From Asparagopsis taxiformis (Eukaryota > Rhodophyta > Florideophyceae > Bonnemaisoniales > Bonnemaisoniaceae): a stretch of 64,000 bases of DNA. Of this stretch, positions 1-57,023 are shown piece by piece. The translations under genes and the position numbers were made by a program. Under the pieces are notes generated by a model, which worked only from the letters and a program-made list of their open reading frames with translations, made no database searches and was not told the origin of the DNA. Position 1 is the stretch's first letter, and each line of letters opens with the position of its first letter. The stretch spans positions 124,001-188,000 of the forward strand of contig JALQPE010002603.1 in the NCBI GenBank assembly GCA_030407315.1. Direction: 5' to 3'.

Positions 1-2329
1 CTCTGTACGCTGTGTATGGGCGCCCAAAGAGTATTATGCGCAAGTCATTTCTGAGCACAGAGATGGCAATTGGGTCGGTTAAGCAGCCGAAGGAGTTGCA
101 ATGGCATCTCACCAATGCCATTGCAATGTATAGAGGGGACGACCGGAGCAGTGAGGTTCGAATGCGACGGAGAACCACGCGTTTACAGGATTTGGAAACG
201 AACTTGAAAGAGTTTTTCAATCCGACATTGAAGAAGAAGACTAAGGCTCGACGCAAACGCCGCCCTTCTGCTGCCAATGTGAGACTCACTCACAAGAAGC
301 AGCGGAATGTCGAACATGAGCCTGCTTCGCATAGCATCCGCCGCCGTTCACAGCGACTTCGCTCGACGGGGAGCACACGCCTCGAGGAAGAAGAGCCGGT
401 TGTGGTACAACAATCCGCCGGGAAGAAGAGCAGGCCGTTGTTGATAAACCCACCGATCAACAACAAGCCACTGCTTCCGGTGATGAGGTTGACGAAGACT
501 CCGCCCGTTCCCCCGATTCTGCCGTTGAGATTGTCCCCCAAGATAACCAACGTGCTGGTGCGACTCCCTCCAACCAAGAATCTGTCCATAACGTTTCGGA
601 CGAGGAAGAAAACAACAGTGCAGATGAGGGCCAAGTCGAAAGCAAGGGGGTCCGCGAAGTGACAATTACACTCACTGTTCCGGAAGGAGTCGAAGTCGAT
701 GAAGACGGTTACATCGTTCGTGACTCTCCTTCTGAACACGACCTCCTGTTCGACGACCGGATGCCATCTCTTCCCGACGATTTCGAAGTCAAAGACCGAG
801 CTGAAGGGCATCATCTGGCGCAGCGTCCCGCGGACGTCATCGCATCGGTGAGGGTTGGTTGTCTGCCCCCGATTGAGCTCAGGTTGTTATTGGAGAGTGT
901 GGAAATCGATGAGGAGGGCAGAGAGGTGAGGTATTTGAAGCAAGTGGCGATGGACCCTGTGTTTGAGGGGCTGCATATTCCGGAACAACATCGGGCTCGT
1001 CATCTTGTTTTCGAGATCGACACCATCTATCCGATGTTTTTCGCAGCGTGGAAGATGGCTGCCAAGGCGATGTGTGAGCCTACATCGACGTTTCTACCCT
1101 CGAGGCTAGACTTCGCCCAGGTTGCGCGAATGTCTACAAGCTGGAAGGATTCGTATGAGGCCGGCACTGGTATGGCGTACTTCCACAATTGCCGAACGGA
1201 AATCAACGAGCGAGGGTATACGGTGATGCACAATTTCGCGGATGTAAGCTACCTCGATGCGTCGGACAAGTTCCCATTTGACTTGGGTCTCATGGAAGAA
1301 ATTCCTATCCAGGAATTGTTTCGGTACTTTTTGGGAACGTGGGAGGGGGAGGAGGTGCACAAGGACCCTGGGAACCGGCAGCTGTGGAGTCCCATTGTCA
1401 ATACGGGGGACGATGAAACAGATGAGAAGAACCGGAATGAGGGGAGGGCTCGCTTCACGTCTACGCGCCACTGCCTGGTTGACTATGCCGAGAACGATGA
1501 GACGCATATCGACCGGTTCAAGTTTGTGACGCGGCGAGCCCTGCTGGATGTGTGGTTGGGAATCCTTGTCCGGCTGATAGGGCTGGAGGAGTGCGGTTTA
1601 CCGGGAGAAAAACTTGTCATGCCGGCATCTGGGGGACGGTTTTTGATAACGGGAAAGGGGTGTCCTCGGCAGGTCCCACACAATGATTTCCCTGTTCCTC
1701 CTCGCGACCGCAAAGATCAACTTCCGGGTTACTTTGTTATTGCCAACGGAGATGACCCATTCCCTATCTGGGTGTGTCCAGGGTCCCACAAGTACGTCTT
1801 TTCCAAAGCGCTGGAATTAGATATGTACGCCAAGACGATGAAGCTGAAGAAGGTAATCGTTCCGCCACGTTCAGTCTTCATCGGTCACGGCTATGTACAA
1901 CATGCCGGGGCAGGGCATGTCGACAGAGTTGTGTCACACACGACAACGAGGTATCACACGTATTTCAGGAATGCGTCATATCCGATTCCCGACAATGTTT
2001 CGTTTGGTTTCATCAGGCGGTTGGGATTCGAAGAAGAAGTAATCCCCAATGCTCCGCGCCGGTCTGCCAGGCAAAGTCAACCGGCACCTGTCAATGTTCG
2101 CCACAAGACAGTTGTTCCCATCCCGGTCAAGAAAGATCGTAGGCCGAAGACAGGGCAGCTCGGAATCATGCGGATGAAGACGACAGAAGCTCCCAAGAAG
2201 AGAACCCTCACAGCGGGTCAAAAATTCATCTTGAGCAGATCAACTCCACAGTTGCCGATAACGCCTATTCTGCCGGGAGATCCTGAATATAGTAGGGACG
2301 AAGACGAAGAAGAATTTTCCGACGGCTAG
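1..2329 (+). pseudogene. Family A ParB/2OG-dioxygenase-like gene, copy alpha (5' cut by window, frameshifted)
   Basis: This is the C-terminal ~60% of the family A protein; the complete copy is at 53067-57023 and the ParB part lies outside the window. One G is missing at about 419 (GGG where the other copies have GGGG). This breaks the frame between the basic nuclear-localisation-like region and the acidic linker, and the downstream frame runs 659-2329. The dioxygenase-like core is intact in the second frame: a His-Asn-Asp near 1678, a distal His in a QHAGAG segment near 1905, and a downstream Arg in TTRYHTYF. The C-terminus reads SRSTPQ..YSRDEDEEEFSDG, matching the 9407-12994 copy and differing slightly from the 53-57 kb copy. 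The lost base could be a sequencing error, in which case the gene would be intact. Confidence 0.85.
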
Positions 2330-2589
2330 ATAGCTTAACAACTACTACTTTGGTAAACAATTATCGAGAATATAATCATCTCCTTTATCACTTCCAATCT
2401 ATGAACCTAGTATAATGTACTTCCGTTCCATGCTTTCAAACTAGATTGTCCATTCCCTCGTGGGTTGCAGCATGATTTCCAGGACGATTCCCTCACATCT
2501 CTAGACTCGATGGTCTATGCTAGAAATAGCAGAACAATTGGGTTTGTACGTGCTTCATCGCCTACTTGCTTCCGGTAATGTGTGGACGT
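2330..2589. other. A gene 3' flank
   Basis: AT-rich stretch conserved after every A copy (also 12995-13254, 57024-57284, and inverted at 42990-43253). It presumably holds the 3' UTR and polyadenylation region. I see no other feature in it. Confidence 0.5.
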
Positions 2590-5563: not shown

Positions 5564-5768
5564 TTGTCGTACAACGAAAAGTGATGTGGAAGGTTCGGAT
5601 TGGTCAACCGCAGAATATCATTACCAGGGTGTATACTAATAGGAATATGTCAGTTCTCTAAGTTTCGCCTATCTTACTCAGCTTACGCAGCAAAACAGCT
5701 TGTCGTTCAGATCTTCTTCTCTCTTTGTCAATCTTTCACTCTTCTTTCCTTATTTCTTCACCAAAGCA
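5564..5768 (+). promoter_or_regulatory. Leader/promoter region of B gene, copy 1
   Basis: Directly follows the palindrome array. The last ~70 bases are pyrimidine-rich (CTTCTTCTCTC... and CACTCTTCTTTCC) and lead to CCAAAGCAATGG. A similar CT-rich leader precedes gene D (38500-38761), so this looks like a shared promoter or 5' UTR style. No clear TATA box was seen. Confidence 0.35.
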
Positions 5769-8700
5769 ATGGCTCAACAATCCCCCAACGCTTTCGACCG
5801 CCAGGTGCGCTCTGCCAGCCGCCGTGACAACGATTCTCCCACTCCTTCTCCTTCTCCCTCTCCTTCTCTGGCCCCCCCTGTCCCCATGGACGTTTGCGAA
5901 GCTGCTGCAGCGCTGACCCAGCTCAGCCCAGCACCTAAGCCCGTCCCCTCCCCCCCTTCCGCCTCCGATCCCGCGGTTGTCCCGACAATCGACGCTGGCG
6001 TTCCCGCAACTCCGCTTCCGGCTCAATCTGCCGAATCGGCGCCAGCCGTCGAGGGATCTGGTGCTCCTCTGCCTAGCTCGCCTGCTCCGGACATGATCAT
6101 CGCGTCCGGCAGCGACTTGGCAGAGGATGCGGAGAAGGTCGATGATCACAACGCTCGTGACATCGTACCGAACAAGCCTCTCCGCAGCACCAGGCTGGCC
6201 TACCCTGGCACAGTGCCCATCCCGGTGGATGTGGAATATGACATAAGTCCGGAGAGCTGCCGAAACATTCCAGTCTTCATTTCCCCTCTGGATGTTTCTC
6301 CTCCGGCAGTCGTGTCCAGGGTGGTCAGGCCGCATCGCGTTGATGAGTTGAAGAAAACGTTTCTCACTCAGGGATTTTCCGTGATTGCTTCACGCGTGTC
6401 CGTCTGCGAGGTGATTGATTCCAATGCAAAAGTACGACTGCAATATGTCGATGGATCTCACCGAGTGACCGCGTTGAAGGCCATTCTCGAGTCGGCTGGA
6501 CCTGCTCCTGCGAAGGACAGTCCAGAATGGGAGGAGTTTGTCAGTTCAGACATTTACCGTCGATTTGGAACTATTCCAGTCTACTTTCTCCTCCCACCGA
6601 CTCGGCTTGGCCGGGATGTCTTCTGCTCCGAAGAAGTACTCCCGCTTTCACGGCTGATGAACTTCCACACCCACAATGTCAGCGAGAAAACAGTTGCTGA
6701 CAATGTGTGCTCTGTGATGGGAGTTCATCAATATCCACCGCCTGGGAAAGAAGAAGATCGAGCCGACCGTTCAATACATCAAAGAACGGAAAGCGCTGAG
6801 CTGGATTCGTTCGAGACAGCTCATGCGCTACGTCTCGATCGCGCGAGGGTTCAAGACCATTGAAAGCCCTGCTTTCAAGTACTGGTCGAGTATTCCGAAC
6901 AGGCCGGAGTTCGTGCAGTTCTCTTCGACCGAGGATCTGGCTGGTTGTACGGTGGAACTTGTTGTTCAATGGGTCGTTCAGGAGTGCTCCGGATGTGCAG
7001 AAGTGTTTCATTCTGGAGATGACGGCGCGCTACACTTGTAGCCGTCGGTCGGCCGGGCTGAAACCGTACTCGGTTGGCACCATTGGGCAGGAATGGATTG
7101 CTGGTTTGTTGGAAATCTTCGGGTACGTGAAGGAGGTGGCCGAGTACTGGAACGTGTCGGATGTGTTGCGGATGCTGGATGGGTCAATTCCCAGCGTGGG
7201 TGACCCGAGCAAGAGCTTCGACATTCGCTCGCGCGTTGTCGAAGTTCTTGCTCAGATGGTCCCCAAGAAGGGGTGTTGGGCAGACTTCCGTCCCAAGGAA
7301 GGCCCCCCCCCCCGATGGTTACAAGTCGGAGAACATTTTTCCCCGTAAGAAGTCTGTCTTCGGGAAGGACGCCAGGAAAATGCTCCTGCCCGTCACTGGG
7401 TACCGCGACATGCAAATGCGGAAACGCTTTCACGCGATGTACCCAGACATCCCACATGCTGCGCTCCCAGCCACATGTGGTGATGATGCCCCCATCCCTT
7501 CCTCTTCCAATTCCTTGCCCATCCCTTCATCCTCCATCCCTTTGCCCCCACCACCTCAACTGGAATCTTCCAGCAATTCCGAGGTTGCCCCTGTTCCTGT
7601 CTCTACCCCTGCCGTGTCGGCATCCTCCCCTGCGGTGACCCCGGTCAAGCCGACTGCGCGTGGTCCCCAGGCTGGCAGTGAACAGTCTGGTCCAGTTTCC
7701 CACGCCGGGACTGGTACCCCCAACCGTCCTGTCCAAGCCGCGCAGGAGCAGGTCTCACCGGCTTCGCAGCCTGAGCCTGCGACTCCGGCTGCCGAGCAGC
7801 ACCCTGCTGCTCCGGCCCCCGCTGTCGAAGCTTCCCGTTCTGCATCTGCTAGCAGTTCGGGAAGCTCCAGCGATGACAGTTTCGTCCCTTCACCATCCGG
7901 TGGGGTTGGACAGAAGACGGTTGCGAGGATTTCGACGGAGGGCCCTACTCCCGAGAATGTGGTCGAGGGCAGCAGTGCGAAGGGCGGTGCAGATCCTGAC
8001 GAAGATGTCATTGAAGTTAGTGATTCTGCACCGCCCGGAGTGGAAACTTCTGGGAGGAAAGTGATGCCCAGAAGGAGTACCCGCCTGCAAGCGAGTCGTT
8101 CCGGTCGTGGTGGAACGGCGGGTGGTGCTGTGGACGTCGTCGAGCTGGAGAGCGCCCCCGAGGATGCGGGTGAAAACTCCATCCTCGGGAAGCGTAACTT
8201 GGATGCGCCTTCTGCGACGCCCGAGCCTTCTACCAAAAAGAGAAGGCTCGGTGAGACTTCTTCGAAGTCGTCGTCAAAGAAATCCAAGTCGGCTTCCCGA
8301 GGTCGCTCTCGGGAGCCGGTTCTCCAGTTCGACGACGCCCAGGAGAATCCCATTCCCGACAGCATCGTCGATGAGAATGTGGCCGCCGTTCTCCCCAGCG
8401 CAATTGCGTCTGGCAGCCGGATGAAGTACTATATGGAAAGTACGACGGTGGAGACGGTTCGGGCGGAAATGAGGGCGGCAGCATTCCAGGCAGCTGCATC
8501 GCCGGGTGCTGAGGATACGGTGGTGGACAGGTACTTTGCGGTGAAGAAGGCATTGTTGGAAAACTTGGGGGTTATTGTTATGGAAGGCCTGTTGGCATCG
8601 TCCACGGCTGGTAATGCGACGCATGAGTTGTTCAGTCACTTCGCTAGGCAGTTCCCGCTGGTTGAGGAGGTTGAAAAACCCTCCCAGCAGTCTGATTCCA

Positions 8701-9406
8701 ACGATGACGACAGGGAGCCACAGGACGAGCCGCCAGCTTTCGCAAAGCCCGGCTTCGATCCTTCGCCGTGGTAGTTCATCCACAACGTGGGTGATGCGAA
8801 GGACCGCATCGATGGTGGTCGTGGGCGCCTCTCTCTGCCGCGGCGTGAGTTGTGCGACAAGTTGGAGGAGGGGAATTTGGAGATGTACAAGAACAAGTTG
8901 GTGGCAGAGCTTGCTCTTGGTGTTTGTGCGGAGTTCTTGAAGTTGGGAATGGAGGGTGATGATCCTGTCTTCTTCCCGAAGACAGGATTGCGGCTGCTTC
9001 TTACAGCAGATGGGGCTGCGGACCAGGATGGGCACACGGACTTCAAGGTATCAACGAGTCGTGTTGCAGGACCTACCGAGTCTCCATCATATTTCATGAT
9101 GTCGAGCGGAGCAGATGGATTCTCTACAGTAGCTGCCCCTTATAGTCATGTATGCCTGGCCAATCCGGACGCCGATATGTGGAAGGTTCCCATTCATAGG
9201 CTTTATGTGCCACCATATTCCGTATTGGTTGGTCGCGGTGACCTTTACCATTACGGGGTCGGCTTCAAGCGCGGAGATATTCCTGCGGGCGAAAAGCTAG
9301 TCTATGGCCTGCCCACGCGCGGCCACATCTACTTGAAGACGGAGAAGGACGTCCTCACGGACCACATCCACACCGTCGAATATTACAAGTACGATAGGAG
9401 CAATAG
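5769..9406 (+). pseudogene. Family B ParB/2OG-dioxygenase-like gene, copy 1 (frameshifts, premature stop, lost end)
   Basis: Start chosen at ATG 5769 (MAQQSPN) after a CT-rich leader; an upstream in-frame ATG at 5700 would add a hydrophobic stretch that is probably leader. A Pro/Ser-rich N-terminus (~130 residues) is followed by a ParB-like domain with VDGSHRVTALKAIL near 6444-6485. The frame then shifts near 6720, again near 6950, and at poly-C 7303-7313 (11 C; 10 would be in frame). A long Ser/Pro/acidic linker with KKRR-type basic patches follows. TAG at 8772-8774 interrupts a codon that is CAG in copy 2. The dioxygenase-like core is then readable: His-Thr-Asp at 9033-9041, His at 9249-9251, Arg at 9318-9320. 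The stop codon is lost at the 9406/9407 fusion. Confidence 0.8.
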
Positions 9407-12400
9407 ATGCGCCCCGCTGCGGAGGATGGCCCTAGCGACATTCGTACCCCTGCTGCAGCGTCAAACTTCAACGCAGCGACGAACCAGGCCAGCTCGGGAC
9501 GGATGCCCAGTACCGGTCCGGCAGGCGAAATCACTGGTTCGGGGGGTACGAAGCATCCAGCACGCTCCATTCCGGTTTCGGGAGGCACGAAGCGCCCTGC
9601 TCGCTCTGCAAGACCCTCCAGTGGAGGCACGAAGCACCCTGCTCGCTCCAACGTCACCGAAGCTACTACGCAGGACGTAACCGAAGTGGACGACGAACCG
9701 GAGGTGGCGGAAAGCATTCGTGAGCAGCAGGGGACGCAAATTACGGTGCCCAAGTTTGTGACGTCGGATTACGTCGGAGAAGGAGCGACTGTGCTGGTGA
9801 GGCAGCTAGTGGAACCGGCCGTGACCCTTCGGGATGTGAAAGAAGACCACGTGGAGGACCTGCGCAACAATATGTTGGCTGTGGGGTATGTGAGCTCTTC
9901 GCGTATCACTGTGACGGTGCTGAGGTCGCAGAACACGCATCTGCCCGCCGACACGCGTCTGTTCCAGAATGGCAAATTCCATGCCAATGCGAACGTGACC
10001 GTGATCGACGGACTGCATCGTCTCAATGCTATGCATAGCATTGCCGATGACTTCACTCGCCTCACCCGTATGCACAGAACCAAGCTGCCACAGGACGCAA
10101 ACCGCTTGCGCTGGGTTACTCAGCCTCTGGATGTGTACTACCTTCGCCGCAAGGACGACAGTGATCTTCAGCCTCATGAGATCATCCACAAGAGTGCAGA
10201 GTCGAACCATACGACTGGGACGCAACTGACGGAGCGCTCCCTGGTTCGAATCTTGTCGTCCATCCAGCAGTTCATCCGTACGATTGCTGTTGCAAATAAC
10301 GTGGAAAACGCTGGCGACTTGCGTGAGTCTGATGTCATCCGAACATTGTTCGAGGCGCAGTTCATGGGGATGATGAATTCAACGAACACGGCCCGGCGGT
10401 GGACGCGTTTGGCTATAGCAACGCTGAAGCATCCTGTTCTCGACGACGTGTTGCGGGAGCTGAACAATTCCGAGCGCCGCAACGAGATTGGGATAACGCA
10501 CCTGGACCACAAGATAGTGCGCGAGTTGCTGGAAGAAAACTTTGTCTTCGTCTTGCGTGGTCTTTCGGAGTACTTGAACCCTGCTCATGGTGGACGTCCG
10601 GATGGACGCTTTGACGTGAACGACTTCTATACATACGTCCGTCGCGTGACTGCAATAGCAAATTCTCTGTACGCTGCGTATGGGCGCCCAAAGAGTATTA
10701 TGCGCAAGTCATTTCTGAGCACAGAGATGGCAATTGGGTCGGTTAAGCAGCCGAAGGAGTTGCAATGGCATCTCACCAATGCCATTGCAATGTATAGAGG
10801 GGACGACCGGAGCAGTGAGGTTCGAATGCGACGGAGAACCACGCGTTTACAGGATTTGGAAACGAACTTGAAAGAGTTTTTCAATCCGACATTGAAGAAG
10901 AAGACTAAGGCTCGACGCAAACGCCGCCCTTCTGCTGCCAATGTGAGACTCACTCACAAGAAGCAGCGGAATGTCGAACATGAGCCTGCTTCGCATAGCA
11001 TCCGCCGCCGTTCACAGCGACTTCGCTCGACGGGGAGCACACGCCTCGAGGAAGAAGAGCCGGTTGTGGTACAACAATCCGCCGGGGAAGAAGAGCAGGC
11101 CGTTGTTGATAAACCCACCGATCAACAACAAGCCACTGCTTCCGGTGATGAGGTTGACGAAGACTCCGCCCGTTCCCCCGATTCTGCCGTTGAGATTGTC
11201 CCCCAAGATAACCAACGTGCTGGTGCGACTCCCTCCAACCAAGAATCTGTCCATAACGTTTCGGACGAGGAAGAAAACAACAGTGCAGATGAGGGCCAAG
11301 TCGAAAGCAAGGGGGTCCGCGAAGTGACAATTACACTCACTGTTCCGGAAGGAGTCGAAGTCGATGAAGACGGTTACATCGTTCGTGACTCTCCTTCTGA
11401 ACACGACCTCCTGTTCGACGACCGGATGCCATCTCTTCCCGACGATTTCGAAGTCAAAGACCGAGCTGAAGGGCATCATCTGGCGCAGCGTCCCGCGGAC
11501 GTCATCGCATCGGTGAGGGTTGGTTGTCTGCCCCCGATTGAGCTCAGGTTGTTATTGGAGAGTGTGGAAATCGATGAGGAGGGCAGAGAGGTGAGGTATT
11601 TGAAGCAAGTGGCGATGGACCCTGTGTTTGAGGGGCTGCATATTCCGGAACAACATCGGGCTCGTCATCTTGTTTTCGAGATCGACACCATCTATCCGAT
11701 GTTTTTCGCAGCGTGGAAGATGGCTGCCAAGGCGATGTGTGAGCCTACATCGACGTTTCTACCCTCGAGGCTAGACTTCGCCCAGGTTGCGCGAATGTCT
11801 ACAAGCTGGAAGGATTCGTATGAGGCCGGCACTGGTATGGCGTACTTCCACAATTGCCGAACGGAAATCAACGAGCGAGGGTATACGGTGATGCACAATT
11901 TCGCGGATGTAAGCTACCTCGATGCGTCGGACAAGTTCCCATTTGACTTGGGTCTCATGGAAGAAATTCCTATCCAGGAATTGTTTCGGTACTTTTTGGG
12001 AACGTGGGAGGGGGAGGAGGTGCACAAGGACCCTGGGAACCGGCAGCTGTGGAGTCCCATTGTCAATACGGGGGACGATGAAACAGATGAGAAGAACCGG
12101 AATGAGGGGAGGGCTCGCTTCACGTCTACGCGCCACTGCCTGGTTGACTATGCCGAGAACGATGAGACGCATATCGACCGGTTCAAGTTTGTGACGCGGC
12201 GAGCCCTGCTGGATGTGTGGTTGGGAATCCTTGTCCGGCTGATAGGGCTGGAGGAGTGCGGTTTACCGGGAGAAAAACTTGTCATGCCGGCATCTGGGGG
12301 ACGGTTTTTGATAACGGGAAAGGGGTGTCCTCGGCAGGTCCCACACAATGATTTCCCTGTTCCTCCTCGCGACCGCAAAGATCAACTTCCGGGTTACTTT

Positions 12401-12994
12401 GTTATTGCCAACGGAGATGACCCATTCCCTATCTGGGTGTGTCCAGGGTCCCACAAGTACGTCTTTTCCAAAGCGCTGGAATTAGATATGTACGCCAAGA
12501 CGATGAAGCTGAAGAAGGTAATCGTTCCGCCACGTTCAGTCTTCATCGGTCACGGCTATGTACAACATGCCGGGGCAGGGCATGTCGACAGAGTTGTGTC
12601 ACACACGACAACGAGGTATCACACGTATTTCAGGAATGCGTCATATCCGATTCCCGACAATGTTTCGTTTGGTTTCATCAGGCGGTTGGGATTCGAAGAA
12701 GAAGTAATCCCCAATGCTCCGCGCCGGTCTGCCAGGCAAAGTCAACCGGCACCTGTCAATGTTCGCCACAAGACAGTTGTTCCCATCCCGGTCAAGAAAG
12801 ATCGTAGGCCGAAGACAGGGCAGCTCGGAATCATGCGGATGAAGACGACAGAAGCTCCCAAGAAGAGAACCCTCACAGCGGGTCAAAAATTCATCTTGAG
12901 CAGATCAACTCCACAGTTGCCGATAACGCCTATTCTGCCGGGAGATCCTGAATATAGTAGGGACGAAGACGAAGAAGAATTTTCCGACGGCTAG
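9407..12994 (+). CDS. Family A ParB/2OG-dioxygenase-like protein, copy beta (5'-truncated, 1195-aa ORF)
   Basis: An uninterrupted ORF equal to the complete A protein (53067-57023) minus about the first 124 residues. The duplication junction supplies an in-frame ATG at 9407-9409. All recognisable domains remain: GGTKxPARS repeats, ParB-like domain with VIDGLHRLNAMHSI near 10002-10045, a basic nuclear-targeting-like stretch, an acidic linker, and the C-terminal dioxygenase-like fold (HND near 12343, His in QHAGAG near 12570, Arg in TTRYH). In place of its own promoter it has the tail of B copy 1, so expression would need read-through or a new promoter. A protein that binds specific DNA through ParB and oxidises a base or protein is inference. 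Confidence 0.75.
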   Translation: MRPAAEDGPSDIRTPAAASNFNAATNQASSGRMPSTGPAGEITGSGGTKHPARSIPVSGGTKRPARSARPSSGGTKHPARSNVTEATTQDVTEVDDEPEVAESIREQQGTQITVPKFVTSDYVGEGATVLVRQLVEPAVTLRDVKEDHVEDLRNNMLAVGYVSSSRITVTVLRSQNTHLPADTRLFQNGKFHANANVTVIDGLHRLNAMHSIADDFTRLTRMHRTKLPQDANRLRWVTQPLDVYYLRRKDDSDLQPHEIIHKSAESNHTTGTQLTERSLVRILSSIQQFIRTIAVANNVENAGDLRESDVIRTLFEAQFMGMMNSTNTARRWTRLAIATLKHPVLDDVLRELNNSERRNEIGITHLDHKIVRELLEENFVFVLRGLSEYLNPAHGGRPDGRFDVNDFYTYVRRVTAIANSLYAAYGRPKSIMRKSFLSTEMAIGSVKQPKELQWHLTNAIAMYRGDDRSSEVRMRRRTTRLQDLETNLKEFFNPTLKKKTKARRKRRPSAANVRLTHKKQRNVEHEPASHSIRRRSQRLRSTGSTRLEEEEPVVVQQSAGEEEQAVVDKPTDQQQATASGDEVDEDSARSPDSAVEIVPQDNQRAGATPSNQESVHNVSDEEENNSADEGQVESKGVREVTITLTVPEGVEVDEDGYIVRDSPSEHDLLFDDRMPSLPDDFEVKDRAEGHHLAQRPADVIASVRVGCLPPIELRLLLESVEIDEEGREVRYLKQVAMDPVFEGLHIPEQHRARHLVFEIDTIYPMFFAAWKMAAKAMCEPTSTFLPSRLDFAQVARMSTSWKDSYEAGTGMAYFHNCRTEINERGYTVMHNFADVSYLDASDKFPFDLGLMEEIPIQELFRYFLGTWEGEEVHKDPGNRQLWSPIVNTGDDETDEKNRNEGRARFTSTRHCLVDYAENDETHIDRFKFVTRRALLDVWLGILVRLIGLEECGLPGEKLVMPASGGRFLITGKGCPRQVPHNDFPVPPRDRKDQLPGYFVIANGDDPFPIWVCPGSHKYVFSKALELDMYAKTMKLKKVIVPPRSVFIGHGYVQHAGAGHVDRVVSHTTTRYHTYFRNASYPIPDNVSFGFIRRLGFEEEVIPNAPRRSARQSQPAPVNVRHKTVVPIPVKKDRRPKTGQLGIMRMKTTEAPKKRTLTAGQKFILSRSTPQLPITPILPGDPEYSRDEDEEEFSDG

Positions 12995-16229: not shown

Positions 16230-16434
16230 TTGTCGTACAACGAAAAGTGATGTGGAAGGTTCGGATTGGTCAACCGCAGAATATCATTACCAGGGTGTAT
16301 ACTAATAGGAATATGTCAGTTCTCTAAGTTTCGCCTATCTTACTCAGCTTACGCAGCAAAACAGCTTGTCGTTCAGATCTTCTTCTCTCTTTGTCAATCT
16401 TTCACTCTTCTTTCCTTATTTCTTCACCAAAGCA
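16230..16434 (+). promoter_or_regulatory. Leader/promoter region of B gene, copy 2
   Basis: Duplicate of 5564-5768, with the same CT-rich leader directly before the start codon. Confidence 0.35.
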
Positions 16435-19400
16435 ATGGCTCAACAATCCCCCAACGCTTTCGACCGCCAGGTGCGCTCTGCCAGCCGCCGTGACAACGAT
16501 TCTCCCACTCCTTCTCCTTCTCCCTCTCCTTCTCTGGCCCCCCCTGTCCCCATGGACGTTTGCGAAGCTGCTGCAGCGCTGACCCAGCTCAGCCCAGCAC
16601 CTAAGCCCGTCCCCTCCCCCCCTTCCGCCTCCGATCCCGCGGTTGTCCCGACAATCGACGCTGGCGTTCCCGCAACTCCGCTTCCGGCTCAATCTGCCGA
16701 ATCGGCGCCAGCCGTCGAGGGATCTGGTGCTCCTCTGCCTAGCTCGCCTGCTCCGGACATGATCATCGCGTCCGGCAGCGACTTGGCAGAGGATGCGGAG
16801 AAGGTCGATGATCACAACGCTCGTGACATCGTACCGAACAAGCCTCTCCGCAGCACCAGGCTGGCCTACCCTGGCACAGTGCCCATCCCGGTGGATGTGG
16901 AATATGACATAAGTCCGGAGAGCTGCCGAAACATTCCAGTCTTCATTTCCCCTCTGGATGTTTCTCCTCCGGCAGTCGTGTCCAGGGTGGTCAGGCCGCA
17001 TCGCGTTGATGAGTTGAAGAAAACGTTTCTCACTCAGGGATTTTCCGTGATTGCTTCACGCGTGTCCGTCTGCGAGGTGATTGATTCCAATGCAAAAGTA
17101 CGACTGCAATATGTCGATGGATCTCACCGAGTGACCGCGTTGAAGGCCATTCTCGAGTCGGCTGGACCTGCTCCTGCGAAGGACAGTCCAGAATGGGAGG
17201 AGTTTGTCAGTTCAGACATTTACCGTCGATTTGGAACTATTCCAGTCTACTTTCTCCTCCCACCGACTCGGCTTGGCCGGGATGTCTTCTGCTCCGAAGA
17301 AGTACTCCCGCTTTCACGGCTGATGAACTTCCACACCCACAATGTCAGCGAGAAAACAGTTGCTGACAATGTGTGCTCTGTGATGGGAGTTCATCAATAT
17401 CCACCGCCTGGGAAAGAAGAAGATCGAGCCGACCGTTCAATACATCAAAGAACGGAAAGCGCTGAGCTGGATTCGTTCGAGACAGCTCATGCGCTACGTC
17501 TCGATCGCGCGAGGGTTCAAGACCATTGAAAGCCCTGCTTTCAAGTACTGGTCGAGTATTCCGAACAGGCCGGAGTTCGTGCAGTTCTCTTCGACCGAGG
17601 ATCTGGCTGGTTGTACGGTGGAACTTGTTGTTCAATGGGTCGTTCAGGAGTGCTCCGGATGTGCAGAAGTGTTTCATTCTGGAGATGACGGCGCGCTACA
17701 CTTGTAGCCGTCGGTCGGCCGGGCTGAAACCGTACTCGGTTGGCACCATTGGGCAGGAATGGATTGCTGGTTTGTTGGAAATCTTCGGGTACGTGAAGGA
17801 GGTGGCCGAGTACTGGAACGTGTCGGATGTGTTGCGGATGCTGGATGGGTCAATTCCCAGCGTGGGTGACCCGAGCAAGAGCTTCGACATTCGCTCGCGC
17901 GTTGTCGAAGTTCTTGCTCAGATGGTCCCCAAGAAGGGGTGTTGGGCAGACTTCCGTCCCAAGGAAGGCCCCCCCCCGATGGTTACAAGTCGGAGAACAT
18001 TTTTCCCCGTAAGAAGTCTGTCTTCGGGAAGGACGCCAGGAAAATGCTCCTGCCCGTCACTGGGTACCGCGACATGCAAATGCGGAAACGCTTTCACGCG
18101 ATGTACCCAGACATCCCACATGCTGCGCTCCCAGCCACATGTGGTGATGATGCCCCCATCCCTTCCTCTTCCAATTCCTTGCCCATCCCTTCATCCTCCA
18201 TCCCTTTGCCCCCACCACCTCAACTGGAATCTTCCAGCAATTCCGAGGTTGCCCCTGTTCCTGTCTCTACCCCTGCCGTGTCGGCATCCTCCCCTGCGGT
18301 GACCCCGGTCAAGCCGACTGCGCGTGGTCCCCAGGCTGGCAGTGAACAGTCTGGTCCAGTTTCCCACGCCGGGACTGGTACCCCCAACCGTCCTGTCCAA
18401 GCCGCGCAGGAGCAGGTCTCACCGGCTTCGCAGCCTGAGCCTGCGACTCCGGCTGCCGAGCAGCACCCTGCTGCTCCGGCCCCCGCTGTCGAAGCTTCCC
18501 GTTCTGCATCTGCTAGCAGTTCGGGAAGCTCCAGCGATGACAGTTTCGTCCCTTCACCATCCGGTGGGGTTGGACAGAAGACGGTTGCGAGGATTTCGAC
18601 GGAGGGCCCTACTCCCGAGAATGTGGTCGAGGGCAGCAGTGCGAAGGGCGGTGCAGATCCTGACGAAGATGTCATTGAAGTTAGTGATTCTGCACCGCCC
18701 GGAGTGGAAACTTCTGGGAGGAAAGTGATGCCCAGAAGGAGTACCCGCCTGCAAGCGAGTCGTTCCGGTCGTGGTGGAACGGCGGGTGGTGCTGTGGACG
18801 TCGTCGAGCTGGAGAGCGCCCCCGAGGATGCGGGTGAAAACTCCATCCTCGGGAAGCGTAACTTGGATGCGCCTTCTGCGACGCCCGAGCCTTCTACCAA
18901 AAAGAGAAGGCTCGGTGAGACTTCTTCGAAGTCGTCGTCAAAGAAATCCAAGTCGGCTTCCCGAGGTCGCTCTCGGGAGCCGGTTCTCCAGTTCGACGAC
19001 GCCCAGGAGAATCCCATTCCCGACAGCATCGTCGATGAGAATGTGGCCGCCGTTCTCCCCAGCGCAATTGCGTCTGGCAGCCGGATGAAGTACTATATGG
19101 AAAGTACGACGGTGGAGACGGTTCGGGCGGAAATGAGGGCGGCAGCATTCCAGGCAGCTGCATCGCCGGGTGCTGAGGATACGGTGGTGGACAGGTACTT
19201 TGCGGTGAAGAAGGCATTGTTGGAAAACTTGGGGGTTATTGTTATGGAAGGCCTGTTGGCATCGTCCACGGCTGGTAATGCGACGCATGAGTTGTTCAGT
19301 CACTTCGCTAGGCAGTTCCCGCTGGTTGAGGAGGTTGAAAAACCCTCCCAGCAGTCTGATTCCAACGATGACGACAGGGAGCCACAGGACGAGCCGCCAG

Positions 19401-31983: not shown

Positions 31984-31989
31984 AAAGTA

Positions 31990-34506: not shown

Positions 34507-34514
34507 AACTTTTT

Positions 34515-34889: not shown

Positions 34890-34907
34890 CGCGCTGGGCC
34901 CATAACC
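34890..34907 (-). other. Primer-binding site complementary to the initiator tRNA-Met anticodon region
   Basis: Directly after the 5' LTR the minus strand reads GGTTATGGGCCCAGCGCG. Its complement CGCGCTGGGCCCATAACC matches the anticodon stem-loop (CAT anticodon) of initiator tRNA-Met. This is the half-tRNA priming known from Drosophila copia and plant Tnt1-type elements. Confidence 0.75.
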
Positions 34908-35706: not shown

Positions 35707-35725
35707 TTTCATTCTCAACACCGTA

Positions 35726-36898: not shown

Positions 36899-37045
36899 CC
36901 AGTACCCTGTCAGGAGAAATGTTGAGAAGTAAATGTTTTCCCATCTTCCTTTAAACTCTGTTCATAGAATTGTAGTTCAAATAAGTGTATGCGAGACAGG
37001 ATGTAAATCCTTGCACAAGTCTCCCAAACGACATAAAATACGAGC

Positions 37046-38263: not shown

Positions 38264-38761
38264 ATGCCCATCCTCCATTCTCTCCATGACCGTTCAATAT
38301 GAGTTCTGATTGATTAGGACGCAACCGCCGGATATTATGCGCATTAGTTGTTATATTGCGCTGTCCCACGGTCCTGTTTGGACAACCTTCAAGGGCATAC
38401 CTTACACGACCATCCACTTCTTCTTTCTCGGCTCCTACTCATCTGCTACTCTCTCTGCTTCTTCTGCACCTGAAAAGCAATCCCGATCGAGGACTTCCCC
38501 CTACGAGACGCACTGTTCCGCTCTCTCTCTTTCTCTCTTTCACTCCCTACACCAATCTCTCCACCTCTACCTACCTCTCTCTGCCAACCTTTCAGGGATC
38601 CTCTCTACCACTTCATTGCCAATCTCTCTGGCGCTATCCACCACACTCTCCCTCCCACTGTCTCTCTAAAGCGACAGTCTATCTCTCCTCAACCATCTCT
38701 ATTCTCCTATCCCCCTCTCTTTCTCACTACACTTCCGCGCTACCCACTCGGCAAAAACAAC
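38264..38761 (+). promoter_or_regulatory. Leader/promoter region of gene D
   Basis: From about 38420 strongly CT-rich (CTCTCTCTTTCTCTCTTTCA and similar) up to the start codon context AAAACAACATGCC. Resembles the leader of family B genes. Confidence 0.35.
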
Positions 38762-40435: not shown

Positions 40436-40765
40436 CGTCTGTGTTCTCGGAAATGGACGCGGACGTCCACAACCTCTAGTACACCTAGTATTACTAGGCG
40501 GACGTCCATGTTCTCCAGTATTTTTGGATGTCCGCCTAGAACCGGACGTCCATGCGGTCTAGTACGTCTAGTATTACTAGGGCGACATTCATTGTTTCTA
40601 GTACCACGGATGTCCCCCTCGGGATGGACTTCCGCCATGTCTATGTCCACCTAGGACGGGCGCCGGTTCAGAAATTCAAAAATTTCGACCCCAGAAATTT
40701 CTGCCGCCGTGCTCGACATGGATGTCCGCATCCATCACGGCGACCACTCTATTTTTCCTTGTCGG
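40436..40765 (+). repeat. X module, inverted relative to 4455-4764
   Basis: Starts CGTCTGTGTTCTCGG at 40436 and cuts gene D. Same palindromes as the other copies. Confidence 0.6.
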
Positions 40766-41770: not shown

Positions 41771-41989
41771 CCTATGCCTTTCCGCTTTGTCAACCCTGAA
41801 TATTGGTACTCATGTATTCATAAAATAGGGCCACCCACATCCCTATCCCGTTCTGCAAGCTTTACAAACCACTAGACGCATACTCCACAACTATACAACA
41901 AACACTACTCGCTATTTCAGACGACGCGGTACACAAGTAGCGTAGTGTCAACCTTCCGTGACGCCTTCCCTGATGCGTACAAGTGGGAA

Positions 41990-42989
41990 ACACGTCTAGA
42001 CGTATATCAGAACTGAGTGCGGGAATTTTCGGCACAGGAGATGCTGGGCCACCAAATTGATTTTTCGGAAATTTTAGAATTTCTGGGCTGGCCAGCAATG
42101 CAATCGAGCTGGACATCCACCGGACGTCCATTTCAGGTTGGTCGCGAGAGGGTGGGGCGGGACCATGATGAAACAAGGACCAAGACCTTTCCCTGACGTG
42201 TTGAGCCTGAAATCGACCCTTCGTGAGACGCGATTTTGGCTTACAGTTGGTGCTAATAGAAGCCAGTGATAGCCCCGATCGGGGCGGCAGCCGGCTCCGG
42301 CTTACAGTTGGTGCTTACAGACGCCAGTGATAGCCCCCGATCGGGGCCGGCGGTCGGTTCCTGGGGCCGTTGTGGCCAAATTAGACACCCTGATTTGAAT
42401 TAAAATTTGGGCTATTCTCAAAAACATGCACATGTGAACATGTTTTTGAGATGGGGGTGTGCCGTACGGCACAATCGACCTGCCCAAATCGTTGATTTTT
42501 TACAATTTTTTGTGCCCGAAATTTTAGAATTTCTGGGCTGGCCAGCAGTGCAATCGAGCTGGACATCCACCGGACGTCCATTTCAGGTTGGTCGTGAGAG
42601 AGTGAGGCGGGACCATGATGGAACAAGGACCAAGACCTGTCCCTGGCGTATTGAGCCTGAAATTGACCCTTCGTGAGACGCGATTTTGGCTTACAGTTAG
42701 TGCTTACAGAAGCCAGTGATGGCCCCACTCGGGGCGGTGGCCGGTGCCTGGGGCCGTTGTGGCCAAATTAGACACCCTGATTTGAATTAAAATTTGGGCT
42801 ATTCTCAAAAACATGCACATGTGAACATGTTTTTGAGATGGGGGTGTGCCGTACGGCACAATCCACCCGCTGAAATCGATGTTTTTTGCAATATTTTTTT
42901 GTGCCCGAAATTGTAGAATTTCTGGGCTGGCCAGCAATGCATCTGAGCTGGACATCCACCGGACGTCCATTTCAGGTTGATCGTGTATC
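41990..42989 (-). repeat. R repeats, inverted, tandem pair
   Basis: Two full R units with TGTGCCGTACGGCACA at 42458-42473 and 42845-42860, plus a partial unit near 42060-42140. Confidence 0.85.
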
Positions 42990-43253
42990 GTGCACGTCCA
43001 CACATTACCGGAAGCAAGTAGGCGATGAAGCACGTACAAACCCAATTGTTCTGCTATTTCTAGCATAGACCATCGAGTCTAGAGATGTGAGGGAATCGTC
43101 CTGGAAATCATGCTGCAACCCACGAGGGAATGGACAATCTAGTTTGAAAGCATGGAACGGAAGTACATTATACTAGGTTCATAGATTGGAAGTGATAAAG
43201 GAGATGATTATATTCTCGATAATTGTTTACCAAAGTAGTAGTTGTTAAGCTAT

Positions 43254-44119
43254 CTAGCCGTCGGAAAATTGTTCTTCCTCTTCGTCCTCACTATATTCAG
43301 GATCTCCCGGCAGAATAGGCGTTATCGGCAACTGTGGAGTTGAATAGCTCAAGATGAATTTTTGACCCGGTGTGAGGGTTCTCTTCTTGGGAGCTTCTGT
43401 CGTCTTCATCCGCATGATTCCGAGTTGCCCTGTCTTCGGCCTACGATCTTTCTTGACCGGGATGGGAACAACTGTCTTGTGGCGAACATTGACAGGTGCC
43501 GGTTGACTTTGCCTGGCAGACCGGCGCGGAGCATTGGCGATTACTTCTTCTTCGAATCCCAACCGCCTGATGAAACCAAACGAAACATTGTCGGGAATCG
43601 GATACGACGCATTCCTGAAATACGTGTGATACCTCGTTGTCGTGTGTGACACAACTCTGTCGACATGCCCTGCCCCGGCATGTTGTACATAGCCGTGACC
43701 GATGAAGACTGAACGTGGCGGAACGATTACCTTCTTCAGCTTCATCGTCTTGGCGTACATATCTAATTCCAGCGCTTTGGAAAAGACGTACTTGTGGGAC
43801 CCTGGACACACCCAGATAGGGAATGGGTCATCTCCGTTGGCAATAACAAAGTAACCCGGAAGTTGATCTTTGCGGTCGCGAGGAGGAACAGGGAAATCAT
43901 TGTGTGGGACCTGCCGAGGACACCCCTTTCCCGTTATCAAAAACCGTCCCCCAGATGCCGGCATGACAAGTTTTTCTCCCGGTAAACCGCACTCCTCCAG
44001 CCCTATCAGCCGGACAAGGATTCCCAACCACACATCCAGCAGGGCTCGCCGCGTCACAAACTTGAACCGGTCGATATGCGTCTCATCGTTCTCGGCATAG
44101 TCAACCAGGCAGTGGCGCG
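43254..44119 (-). pseudogene. Family A C-terminal fragment, copy delta
   Basis: Encodes about the last 288 residues of protein A, from RHCLVDYAEN to the SDG end, including the whole HND ... QHAGAG ... TTRYH dioxygenase-like core, in one open frame. The C-terminus reads SEDEEEEQFSDG, closer to the 53-57 kb copy than to alpha or beta. It is cut at 44119 by an X terminus and has no ParB part or promoter. Confidence 0.85.
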
Positions 44120-52740: not shown

Positions 52741-53066
52741 GGGTGCTCGCAGCCGCCCCAAAAGCCGCCTAGCTTGACAGCTGTAATTTTAACACATTAC
52801 ACATCAAGGACACTGCCTGCTTCACGCCACCTCGTCAGGTTTCGAGAGCCCGACTCGGGCCCGTTCCGAACGGACACTCACATCTCGATTGCCTCTCTTG
52901 CATTCCAGCGGTCACGATAGGTGTGTACCTAACAAAATTTCGGTTGTATTGTGTTATTATTTCCAGCGATTGGCGTTCACGACCATTCTTCAACGTGAAA
53001 CATACCATCCACATCACTCCAATACGTCAACGTCAACCATCTCTTTTCCTTTCCAACTCAACAACC
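52741..53066 (+). promoter_or_regulatory. Leader/promoter region of the complete A gene
   Basis: Unique to this copy. Contains the palindrome-like CCCGACTCGGG and GTTCCGAAC, a possible small intron (AG then GTGTGT at 52920, TTTCCAG ending 52966), and a pyrimidine-rich stretch before CAACAACCATGG. Confidence 0.35.
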
Positions 53067-56000
53067 ATGGCGGATACGCATTTCAGCAGTTTGTTTTCAA
53101 CGGTTTGCGGCGATCAAGTGAGCGCGTCAGCGGAGTCGCGCGGACTCAAGCGCGGCGTCGATGTCAATTTGTTTGCGGACGTGGACGGTGCGGCTGTGCA
53201 TATTGGGACGGCTTCGGTGAGCACTGCTGGTGGCGATGTTGGCCTTCCGCGCACGCTGCACAACCACAAGCTGCCGGAAACCGACGAGGCGGACTATATC
53301 GTCGTGCGCAACATTGCGACTAAGGACAAGTTCAAGGACCTCCCGTTCCCGTACATGTTTGATGGCGCCGAGGGACCGCCGGAGACGATGGGTGGAGCAT
53401 ACGCCGCGGCGTTTTACCCTTGGGATACTCGGATGATGCGCCCCGCTGCGGAGGATGGCCCTAGCGACATTCGTACCCCTGCTGCAGCGTCAAACTTCAA
53501 CGCAGCGACGAACCAGGCCAGCTCGGGACGGATGCCCAGTACCGGTCCGGCAGGCGAAATCACTGGTTCGGGGGGTACGAAGCATCCAGCACGCTCCACT
53601 CCGGTTTCGGGAGGCACGAAGCGCCCTGCTCGCTCTGCAAGACCCTCCAGTGGAGGCACGAAGCACCCTGCTCGCTCCAACGTCACCGAAGCTACTACGC
53701 AGGACGTAACCGAAGTGGACGACGAACCGGAGGTGGCGGAAAGCATTCGTGAGCAGCAGGGGACGCAAATTACGGTGCCCAAGTTTGTGACGTCGGATTA
53801 CGTCGGAGAAGGAGCGACTGTGCTGGTGAGGCAGCTAGTGGAACCGGCCGTGACCCTTCGGGATGTGAAAGAAGACCACGTGGAGGACCTGCGCAACAAT
53901 ATGTTGGCTGTGGGGTATGTGAGCTCTTCGCGTATCACTGTGACGGTGCTGAGGTCGCAGAACACGCATCTGCCCGCCGACACGCGTCTGTTCCAGAATG
54001 GCAAATTCCATGCCAATGCGAACGTGACCGTGATCGACGGACTGCATCGTCTCAATGCTATGCATAGCATTGCCGATGACTTCACGCGCCTCACCCGTAT
54101 GCACAGAACCAAGCTGCCACAGGACGCAAACCGCTTGCGCTGGGTTACTCAGCCTCTGGATGTGTACTACCTTCGCCGCAAGGACGACAGTGATCTTCAG
54201 CCTCATGAGATCATCCACAAGAGTGCAGAGTCGAACCATACGACTGGGACGCAACTGACGGAGCGCTCCCTGGTTCGAATCTTGTCGTCCATCCAGCAGT
54301 TCATCCGTACGATTGCTGTTGCAAATAACGTGGAAAACGCTGGCGACTTGCGTGAGTCTGATGTCATCCGAACATTGTTCGAGGCGCAGTTCATGGGGAT
54401 GATGAATTCAACGAACACGGCCCGGCGGTGGACGCGTTTGGCTATAGCAACGCTGAAGCATCCTGTTCTCGACGAAGTGTTGCGTGAGCTGAACAATTCC
54501 GAGCGCCGCAACGAGATTGGGATAACGCACCTGGACCACAAGATAGTGCGCGAGTTGCTGGAAGAAAACTTTGTCTTCGTCTTGCGTGGTCTTTCGGAGT
54601 ACTTGAACCCTGCTCATGGTGGACGTCCGGATGGACGCTTTGACGTGAACGACTTCTATACATACGTCCGTCGCGTGACTGCAATAGCAAATTCTCTGTA
54701 CGCTGCGTTTGGGCGCCCAAAGAGTATTATGCGCAAGTCATTTCTGAGCACAGAGATGGCAATTGGGTCGGTTAAGCAGCCGAAGGAGTTGCAATGGCAT
54801 CTCACCAATGCCATTGCAATGTATAGAGGGGACGACCGGAGCAGTGAGGTTCGAATGCGACGGAGAGCCACGCGTTTACAGGATTTGGAAACGAACTTGA
54901 AAGAGTTTTTCAATCCGACATTGAAGAAGAAGACTAAGGCTCGACGCAAACGCCGCCCTTCTGCTGCCAATGTGAGACTCACTCACAAGAAGCAGCGGAA
55001 TGTCGAACATGAGCCTGCTTCGCATGGCATCCGCCGCCGTTCACAGCGACTTCGCTCGACGGGGAGCACACGCCTCGAGGAAGAAGAGCCGGTTGTGGTA
55101 CAACAATCCGCCGGGGAAGAAGAACAGGCCGTTGTTGATAAACCCACCGATCAACAACAAGCCACTGCTTCCGGTGATGAGGTTGACGAAGACTCCGCCC
55201 GTTCCCCCGATTCTGCCGTTGAGATTGTCCCCCAAGATAACCAACGTGCTGGTGCGACTCCCTCCAACCAAGAATCTGTCCATAACGTTTCGGACGAGGA
55301 AGAAAACAACAGTGCAGACGAGGGCCAAGTCGAAAGCAAGGGGGTCCGCGAAGTGACAATTACACTCACTGTTCCGGAAGGAGTCGAAGTCGATGAAGAC
55401 GGTTACATCGTTCGTGACTCTCCTTCTGAACACGACCTCCTGTTCGACGACCGGATGCCATCTCTTCCCGACGATTTCGAAGTCAAAGACCGAGCTGAAG
55501 GGCATCATCTGGCGCAGCGTCCCGCGGACGTCATCGCATCGGTGAGGGTTGGTTGTCTGCCCCCGATTGAGCTCAGGTTGTTATTGGAGAGTGTGGAAAT
55601 CGATGAGGAGGGCAGAGAGGTGAGGTATTTGAAGCAAGTGGCGATGGACCCTGTGTTTGAGGGGCTGCATATTCCGGAACAACATCGGGCTCGTCATCTT
55701 GTTTTCGAGATCGACACCATCTATCCGATGTTTTTCGCAGCGTGGAAGATGGCTGCCAAGGCGATGTGTGAGCCTACATCGACGTTTCTACCCTCGAGGC
55801 TGGACTTCGCCCAGGTTGCGCGAATGTCTACAAGCTGGAAGGATTCGTATGAGGCCGGCACTGGTATGGCGTACTTCCACAATTGCCGAACGGAAATCAA
55901 CGAGCGAGGGTATACGGTGATGCACAATTTCGCGGATGTAAGCTACCTCGATGCGTCGGACAAGTTCCCATTTGACTTGGGTCTCATGGAAGAAATTCCT

Positions 56001-57023
56001 ATCCAGGAATTGTTTCGGTACTTTTTGGGAACGTGGGAGGGGGAGGAGGTGCACAAGGACCCTGGGAACCGGCAGCTGTGGAGTCCCATTGTCAATACGG
56101 GGGACGATGAAACAGATGAGAAGAACCGGAATGAGGGGAGGGCTCGCTTCACGTCTACGCGCCACTGCCTGGTTGACTATGCCGAGAACGATGAGACGCA
56201 TATCGACCGGTTCAAGTTTGTGACGCGGCGAGCCCTGCTGGATGTGTGGTTGGGAATCCTTGTCCGGCTGATAGGGCTGGAGGAGTGCGGTTTACCGGGA
56301 GAAAAACTTGTCATGCCGGCATCTGGGGGACGGTTTTTGATAACGGGAAAGGGGTGTCCTCGGCAGGTCCCACACAATGATTTCCCTGTTCCTCCTCGCG
56401 ACCGCAAAGATCAACTTCCGGGTTACTTTGTTATTGCCAACGGAGATGACCCATTCCCTATCTGGGTGTGTCCAGGGTCCCACAAGTACGTCTTTTCCAA
56501 AGCGCTGGAATTAGATATGTACGCCAAGACGATGAAGCTGAAGAAGGTAATCGTTCCGCCACGTTCAGTCTTCATCGGTCACGGCTATGTACAACATGCC
56601 GGGGCAGGGCATGTCGACAGAGTTGTGTCACACACGACAACGAGGTATCACACGTATTTCAGGAATGCGTCGTATCCGATTCCCGACAATGTTTCGTTTG
56701 GTTTCATCAGGCGGTTGGGATTCGAAGAAGAAGTAATCCCCAATGCTCCGCGCCGGTCTGCCAGGCAAAGTCAACCGGCACCTGTCAATGTTCGCCACAA
56801 GACAGTTGTTCCCATCCCGGTCAAGAAAGATCGTAGGCCGAAGACAGGGCAACTCGGAATCATGCGGATGAAGACGACAGAAGCTCCCAAGAAGAGAACC
56901 CTCACACCGGGTCAAAAATTCATCTTGAGCTATTCAACTCCACAGTTGCCGATAACGCCTATTCTGCCGGGAGATCCTGAATATAGTGAGGACGAAGACG
57001 AAGAAGAATTTTCCGACGGCTAG
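53067..57023 (+). CDS. Complete family A protein: ParB-like domain plus 2OG-Fe(II) dioxygenase-like domain, 1318 aa
   Basis: Start at ATG 53067 (ACAACCATGG; MADTHFSSLFS); an in-frame ATG at 52923 would add 48 unlikely residues. Order: unique N-terminus (1-160); three GGTKxPARS repeats (~170-205); ParB-like domain with DVKEDHVEDLRNNMLAVGY and VIDGLHRLNAMHSI (~270-340); helical region (~360-600); basic nuclear-targeting-like stretch KKKTKARRKRRP (~617-630); acidic linker; C-terminal beta-fold with His-x-Asp (PHNDF, ~1101), distal His (QHAGAG, ~1177) and Arg (TTRYHTYF, ~1191), the 2-oxoglutarate/iron dioxygenase triad plus 2OG anchor; basic and acidic tail. Inference: it is targeted to DNA by ParB and oxidises a nucleobase or chromatin protein. 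It is flanked by R palindrome units on both sides. Confidence 0.8.
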   Translation: MADTHFSSLFSTVCGDQVSASAESRGLKRGVDVNLFADVDGAAVHIGTASVSTAGGDVGLPRTLHNHKLPETDEADYIVVRNIATKDKFKDLPFPYMFDGAEGPPETMGGAYAAAFYPWDTRMMRPAAEDGPSDIRTPAAASNFNAATNQASSGRMPSTGPAGEITGSGGTKHPARSTPVSGGTKRPARSARPSSGGTKHPARSNVTEATTQDVTEVDDEPEVAESIREQQGTQITVPKFVTSDYVGEGATVLVRQLVEPAVTLRDVKEDHVEDLRNNMLAVGYVSSSRITVTVLRSQNTHLPADTRLFQNGKFHANANVTVIDGLHRLNAMHSIADDFTRLTRMHRTKLPQDANRLRWVTQPLDVYYLRRKDDSDLQPHEIIHKSAESNHTTGTQLTERSLVRILSSIQQFIRTIAVANNVENAGDLRESDVIRTLFEAQFMGMMNSTNTARRWTRLAIATLKHPVLDEVLRELNNSERRNEIGITHLDHKIVRELLEENFVFVLRGLSEYLNPAHGGRPDGRFDVNDFYTYVRRVTAIANSLYAAFGRPKSIMRKSFLSTEMAIGSVKQPKELQWHLTNAIAMYRGDDRSSEVRMRRRATRLQDLETNLKEFFNPTLKKKTKARRKRRPSAANVRLTHKKQRNVEHEPASHGIRRRSQRLRSTGSTRLEEEEPVVVQQSAGEEEQAVVDKPTDQQQATASGDEVDEDSARSPDSAVEIVPQDNQRAGATPSNQESVHNVSDEEENNSADEGQVESKGVREVTITLTVPEGVEVDEDGYIVRDSPSEHDLLFDDRMPSLPDDFEVKDRAEGHHLAQRPADVIASVRVGCLPPIELRLLLESVEIDEEGREVRYLKQVAMDPVFEGLHIPEQHRARHLVFEIDTIYPMFFAAWKMAAKAMCEPTSTFLPSRLDFAQVARMSTSWKDSYEAGTGMAYFHNCRTEINERGYTVMHNFADVSYLDASDKFPFDLGLMEEIPIQELFRYFLGTWEGEEVHKDPGNRQLWSPIVNTGDDETDEKNRNEGRARFTSTRHCLVDYAENDETHIDRFKFVTRRALLDVWLGILVRLIGLEECGLPGEKLVMPASGGRFLITGKGCPRQVPHNDFPVPPRDRKDQLPGYFVIANGDDPFPIWVCPGSHKYVFSKALELDMYAKTMKLKKVIVPPRSVFIGHGYVQHAGAGHVDRVVSHTTTRYHTYFRNASYPIPDNVSFGFIRRLGFEEEVIPNAPRRSARQSQPAPVNVRHKTVVPIPVKKDRRPKTGQLGIMRMKTTEAPKKRTLTPGQKFILSYSTPQLPITPILPGDPEYSEDEDEEEFSDG

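Follow-up and report, generated by a model that had tools for sequence, protein, structure and literature searches.

Epigenetic enzymes as cargo of DNA transposons are already known. Fungal DNA transposons (EnSpm, Plavaka, KDZ, and others) encode TET/JBP dioxygenases, for which an escape from silencing has been proposed, and these elements mostly have 5'-CA..TG-3' ends and target site duplications (TSDs) of 2-5 bp (main text of PMC12730594). Retrotransposons of dinoflagellates and charophytes carry C5 DNA methyltransferases (DNMTs), and de novo CG methylation has been shown for them (PMC5890265). Methylase fusions of ParB are described from phages in a survey according to which sulfiredoxin is the most common ParB-fold protein in eukaryotes (PMC12704722), and bdelloid rotifers use an N4 methylase of bacterial type as an enzyme of their own (PMC8885841). 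Here, a window of 64,000 nt from the red alga Asparagopsis taxiformis (contig C2475, 124001-188000, in an assembly of 141.5 Mb and 3156 contigs) was analyzed, in which an initial annotation had noticed four gene families with a ParB-like domain, named A, B, D, and M. We propose, with a probability of about 70%, that the genes of the window are cargo of large, recently multiplied CACTA/EnSpm-like transposons, the modifying enzymes of which shield or open the element.

The resemblance to the known systems is partial. Like the fungal TET/JBP transposons (PMC12730594), the elements appear to be DNA transposons of CACTA/EnSpm-like and, for the A/D group, possibly Plavaka type with a putative DNA-modification dioxygenase, here an oxidase-like HxD...H...R protein. 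However, they reside in a red alga, their cargo consists of ParB-methyltransferase-SET and ParB-HxD...H...R proteins without a TET/JBP Pfam match, and the word 'ParB' does not occur in the main text of that article. HarbingerS and MuDR, named in the same article, are likewise DNA transposons with a SET histone methyltransferase, but they belong to other superfamilies, and no DNA methylase or ParB fusion is named for them there. The C5 DNMT elements are also selfish, present in hundreds of copies, and equipped with a DNA methyltransferase, whereas they are retrotransposons with a C5-cytosine enzyme, and the abstract and outline of PMC5890265 name no ParB, SET, or oxygenase domain on them. As in the phage ParB-N6_N4 methyltransferase fusions of PMC12704722, the main text of which contains neither 'transpos' nor 'SET domain', the ParB-like domain lies N-terminal to a beta-class amino-methyltransferase. 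The phage ParB-methylases scanned in this study differ from M in that they are 403-525 amino acids (aa) long and have no SET match. The rotifer enzyme (N4CMT, PDB 8s9o) is reportedly encoded by a host gene and is not transposon cargo, and we know of no ParB or SET fusion of it. According to the sources cited above, the known carriers hold epigenetic enzymes singly, that is TET/JBP in fungi, a C5 DNMT in retroelements, and SET in Harbinger. Here, one element unites a bacterial-type amino-methylase-SET fusion with two oxidase-like proteins, all with a ParB-like module, and no earlier description of this combination in red-algal CACTA-like elements was found in the open-access articles searched.

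The M-type element has the anatomy of a mobile element, with intact frames in multiple copies and conserved motifs. A unit common to three contigs is sharply delimited on its left side, where it starts with CACTACGGTGTTGAGAATG and continues with palindromic subterminal repeats of the ACAGTAAATTTACTGT type (by eye); the common right border, obtained by extension in C44 and C337, ends with TCAACACCGTAGTG. A complete element of 27,188 bp is present in C44. It has 14-bp inverted ends that start with CACTA, and CACTACGGTGTTGA is found at both ends. The inverted termini are thus of the CACTA..TAGTG type, as in CACTA/EnSpm-like (CMCT) transposons. The left-end 19-mer has 353 exact copies in the genome (171 on the plus and 182 on the minus strand) and the right-end 22-mer has 898 (462 and 436), while both reversed controls yielded none. 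When the first 100 places listed for each end were used, 38 of 48 M matches (on the 45 contigs shared by the left-end list and the M matches used) were located in the right orientation at 6.35-6.60 kb from a left end, and three more at 5.23 kb. TSDs were analyzed for C44 and seven usable pairs. The C122 pair turned out to be wrongly matched and was left aside, a C64 pair lies at a contig start and has no left flank, and in C212 another right end is possible. The paired ends used span 8.9 to 27.2 kb. A duplication of 2 bp was present at four of the eight pairs (GC, AG, GA, TA), with a chance expectation of 1 in 16 per pair. The copy in C132 interrupts a gene that is whole in L037, and the M gene of L031 is broken by a right end at a point where all five compared M copies run on.

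These results bear on the possibility that host defence or epigenetic genes were amplified by chance near transposons. The proteins do look like chromatin regulators, and the rotifer N4 methylase is a host enzyme (PMC8885841), but the fixed distance of M inside defined termini that occur hundreds of times makes this very improbable. A host locus had been considered and was dropped, as the copies number in the hundreds. The defence-type system suggested by the initial annotation is unsupported, and nothing that was seen points to defence; M and B lie within the termini, with TSDs in half of the tested pairs and together with a transposase-like gene.

Some features of the ends are added as separate observations. 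Right ends exceed left ends, and both C20 and C214 contain a left end and an equally oriented right end with a spacing of 151 bp, which suggests short derivatives or nested insertions. Two pair lengths recur, namely 14,445 bp in C19 and C104 and about 15.1 kb in C10 and C212. Contigs C337 (end 118325) and C64 (start 3) terminate at the left terminus or no more than 2 bases from it; these may be linear copies outside the chromosomes, or the assembly may have broken at the repeat.

From left to right, the element in C44 contains open reading frames (ORFs) of 537 aa (plus) and 467 aa (minus), M (plus), tandem repeats of 881 bp, and then B, B2, and an ORF of 1288 aa, all three on the minus strand. 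A search with the 1288-aa protein gave, besides its self-match, 22 related proteins of 35-55% identity, and DYP and CxxC are invariant in the 20 aligned proteins of this family of 23, as in CACTA-type transposases, for which C(2)C after the second catalytic D is described (PMC12730594). An H(3-4)H motif between the second D and the E was not identified by eye. We infer that the protein is the transposase because of its position within the CACTA ends. An apparent second, broken relative (by eye) lies downstream of the C92 element (L045:5261-9478, minus strand).

The M protein had been annotated as a DNA methyltransferase joined to a SET domain, and this was confirmed. The copy in the window is split over several frames (PF01555, E 3.1e-14), and the intact gene is an open frame of 1186 aa with PF01555 (E 2.4e-16), PF00856 (E 4.3e-6), and the ParB-like motif near the N-terminus. 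The SET profile was also above the cut-off in the relative P0018 (E 3.1e-5) and below it in L037 (E 0.037). PF01555, DPP[FY] before motif I, and the fold, found in searches with residues 617-886 of the M model (the methyltransferase part), agree with a beta-class N6-adenine/N4-cytosine methyltransferase. The DPP and motif-I residues are invariant across eight aligned M-type sequences, down to about 20% identity. By its domains, M is predicted to methylate adenine-N6 or cytosine-N4 and, in addition, a histone or other lysine. In the genome profile search, all 150 scored candidates (of 2605 at first look) matched PF01555, a lower bound that includes several methylase families; 50 matches were in open frames of 1161-1204 aa, and 38 of these were exactly 1186 aa long. 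Five M copies with their flanks are 99.76-99.91% identical over 6.65-7.70 kb. Two more ParB-methylase families were seen, one with DGMHR (L004), the C-terminus of which resembles the small N-terminal domain of A (by eye), and one with DGEHR and a cysteine-rich C-terminal tail (L007).

The genome-wide search for further members, proposed by the initial annotation, showed that A and B are also not confined to the window. Scoring of 34 among the 4782 first-look candidates for A yielded at least 41 matched stretches of 97-100% identity, again a lower bound. They lie in open frames of 1364-1450 aa, with in-frame stops in 6 of the 41 rows. B recurs in contigs C44, C92, C132, and C337, and B2 is a protein of 1087 aa with DGSHR and HTD...H...R. 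The HxD...H...R residues are invariant in all six aligned sequences of the A, B, and B2 types, and the proteins may be oxygenases of the Fe(II)/2-oxoglutarate type, by which marks would be removed or changed.

The ParB-like module connects all these proteins. Six motifs of the form DGxHRxxA[LMI] are present in long frames of the window, compared with a mean of 0.0 in 100 simulated first-order Markov windows, and all four families were recovered where they had been placed: A with DGLHRLNAM (10007 and 54036, plus), B with DGSHRVTAL (6450 and 17116, plus), D with DGLHRRGAL (39050, plus), and M with DGAHRCMAI (24439, minus). A preceding helix of the HVExLxxxMxxxGF type had been reported for each of them. 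It is exact (HVExLxxxMxxxGF/Y) in A and D only, while the helix of B (HRVDELKKTFLTQGF) and that of M (HVEALMESIRNSGY) follow the pattern less strictly. With hhalign, the ParB-like domains aligned in register with phage ParB (E 1.7e-4 and 0.0096), and residues 15-95 of the M model have the order E-H-E-E-H-E at a block pLDDT (predicted local distance difference test) of 68-88. The module could be a common nucleotide-dependent part for DNA loading or targeting. Alternatively, it could be a small-molecule enzyme of the SerK/Srx type or a DndB-like regulator, in either case without loading on DNA. Among Pfam families, the A/B/D-type domains match DndB best (2 of 7), and DGxHR resembles SerK-type motifs. 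A DndB-like protein is described to bind ATP and GTP (PMC12704722). Yet the module is fused to different DNA- and chromatin-type enzymes and precedes the DNA methylase, as in the phage ParB-methylases, and we regard this alternative as doubtful. A search of the genome for PF02195 had a single match, L001 (C1526:7582-7839, E 8.8e-8), on a contig of 14.7 kb that may be a bacterial contaminant or organellar.

A and D, together with a Plavaka transposase, appear to belong to another, similarly equipped transposon family, the unity of which is hypothetical. A Plavaka transposase (PF18759, E 1.6e-24) adjoins the element copy in C132, and at least 123 scored copies, of 1208 candidates, belong to this Plavaka family. 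The combined order from C132 and L037 is Plavaka, a 592-aa coiled-coil gene, a methyltransferase-SET gene without ParB, and A. D converges on A in the window and in C44. The distance from Plavaka to A is about 9.8 kb in C132/L037, recurs in C136, and is larger in C519 and C1567.

Under the transposon interpretation, M would write N6-methyladenine (6mA) or N4-methylcytosine (4mC) and a lysine mark, and A, B, and B2 would oxidise marks, removing or changing them. M, A, B, and B2 share the ParB-like module, which would load on DNA or sense nucleotides, with the subterminal palindromes as candidate loading sites. Such a toolkit would keep the element open to its transposase and protected from host silencing; the gain could be an escape from silencing or a self-mark that aids transposition, as proposed for the fungal TET/JBP transposons (PMC12730594). 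A more specific version is possible, although we are inclined to doubt it: parS-like subterminal palindromes might load spreading modules that bring writers of 6mA/4mC and of histone marks, along with erasers acting by oxidation, to the DNA of the element itself, and the resulting self-identity mark might be read by both transposase and host.

It could also be that the genes were picked up as passive cargo and are merely carried with the transposons, contributing to neither transposition nor silencing. The functional roles are predicted ones, and short derivatives are indicated by the 898 right versus 353 left ends and by the eight pairs of very different length. However, frames are intact in dozens of copies, the DPP and motif-I residues of M are invariant in the distant relatives mentioned above, and the same set of functions seems to be carried by two element groups, which makes a purely passive role unlikely.

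Several results weigh against the view that the window genes are active transposon cargo. Four of the eight end pairs lack a TSD. Seven of the 48 M matches are off the fixed distance from any listed left end, which slightly lowers our confidence in the transposon reading. The 1288-aa protein itself had no Pfam transposase match, one of 20 family members weakly reached the Plavaka profile PF18759 (5e-4), and hhalign with a Plavaka protein was in register and weak (E 0.004, probability 8.7). The NHxC motif of SET reads NDC in M (by eye). The dioxygenase-like domain proposed for A and B holds at the level of its motif, with a fold that is putative: none of the six sequences matched any Pfam family, TET/JBP included, at E<=10, a search in which HMMER filters can miss remote kin, and the best PDB profile match of the region was unrelated (E 0.48). 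The structure check that the initial annotation had proposed gave the methyltransferase fold for M, but for A the model was poor (pLDDT 38.8, alignment of 4 rows), and PDB profile searches with the ParB-like domains gave nothing significant, with SbnI at E 1.6. Furthermore, none of 13 tested domains from M and from the A/B/D types matched PF02195, the in-register hhalign alignments with phage ParB had low probabilities (50 at E 1.7e-4 and 4 at E 0.0096), and the motif is absent from P0020 and L037. A search of three 2-kb stretches did not reveal the termini of the A/D element, and its order and ends were pieced together from several contigs.

M has seven matches in other sequence sets, six of them at 22-44% identity over the alignment; the seventh, P0015, is probably from the same species, judged by its identity. 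PF00856 and PF01555 are both present in P0015, P0016, and P0020, and likewise in P0018 on its own scan, and six of the seven, namely P0015-P0019 and P0021, carry the ParB motif. A has three matches at 30-36% local identity. The near-identical copies and the relatives in other sequence sets make the proposal directly testable by native long-read sequencing. The elements offer a natural system in which to ask if marks on selfish DNA are set and erased by that DNA itself, and if 6mA or 4mC is of importance to red algae.

A single M sequence found no relative in the viral contigs, whereas the M-family alignment found 15 loci. Ten of these (IMG/VR loci among L070-L081) were scanned, and all ten had PF01555; eight had PF02195 at E<=0.01 in N-terminal position, two of them over the curated cut-off. 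The likeness to phage ParB-methylase fusions, noticed at the outset, is thus well founded, and so is the description of the families as eukaryotic, multicopy, and selfish-looking, with the ParB-like domain joined to a DNA methylase, SET, and an oxidase-like domain. In a methylase tree computed without the viral L073 and L076, 11 sequences from this genome and the environment and 13 viral rows lie on the two sides of one branch (85/86). No origin is claimed from the tree, because two long branches make rooting unsafe; the shared domain order hints that the ParB-methylase fusion came from phages or bacteria. An endogenised large DNA virus or Polinton-like element would fit multi-gene units of tens of kb in near-identical copies, the contigs C337 and C64 that end at a terminus, and the abundance of ParB-methylases in phages (PMC12704722). 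Nevertheless, the ends are of the CACTA type and the TSDs measure 2 bp, the Pfam-scanned ORFs include no gene for a capsid, a polymerase, or packaging, and the scanned viral relatives are short methylases, so that we consider a viral nature extremely improbable. The viral reading was dropped for its lack of viral core genes among the scanned ORFs and the CACTA ends.

Table 1. Features of the window (positions are those of the window)
Feature	Coordinates	Strand	Remarks
A gene, C-terminal part only	12..2329	+	two ORFs, left window edge
B gene, second copy	5643..9398	+	in 10.67-kb tandem duplication
A gene copy without N-terminus	9407..12994	+	ParB-like and HxD...H...R
B gene, two frames	16309..20074	+	ParB-like and HxD...H...R domains
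M gene, broken copy	21179..24733	-	ParB-like 24167-24733; N6/N4 DNA methyltransferase 21984-24167; SET 21179-21691
ORF without assigned function	25488..26576	+	467-aa family in intact copies
ORF without assigned function	26893..28278	-	537-aa family, shorter here, adjoins copia insertion
M-type transposon left terminus CACTACGGTGTTGAGAATG	35710..35728	-	exact match; element extends toward lower coordinates; sits in another methyltransferase-SET gene
Second methyltransferase-SET gene, C-terminal part	35729..36932	+	PF01555 E 5.4e-11; SET start by eye; split by M-type element
D gene	38474..40654	+	ParB-like, low-complexity C-terminus
A gene tail and downstream repeats, inverted copy	41786..44119	-	inverted repeats I1-I6
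A gene, full length	52773..57023	+	small N-terminal domain; ParB-like ~53811-54284; HxD...H...R ~56373-56700

In D, no enzyme domain was recognised by Pfam. Within positions 1-20074, a unit of 10.67 kb that comprises the A tail, repeats, B, and the A start occurs twice in tandem, with 99.9% identity over 9.4 kb; the duplication may be real or an effect of the assembly. Two copia retroelements (RVT_2, gag) are present in the window, at 28954-35207 and at about 58644-63387. The first of them lies inside the M-type transposon, and its long terminal repeats are identical in 300 of 300 bases compared. Elsewhere in the assembly, contig C469 carries allophycocyanin and phycocyanin genes. The beta subunit of phycocyanin has its best PDB match in 5y6p, followed by 6kgx, both of them red-algal phycobilisomes, in agreement with a red-algal host that is probably a florideophyte. 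One phycobilisome match is repeated, equally scored, at a distance of 177,170 bp, a pattern that would be expected of a circular plastid read past its start.

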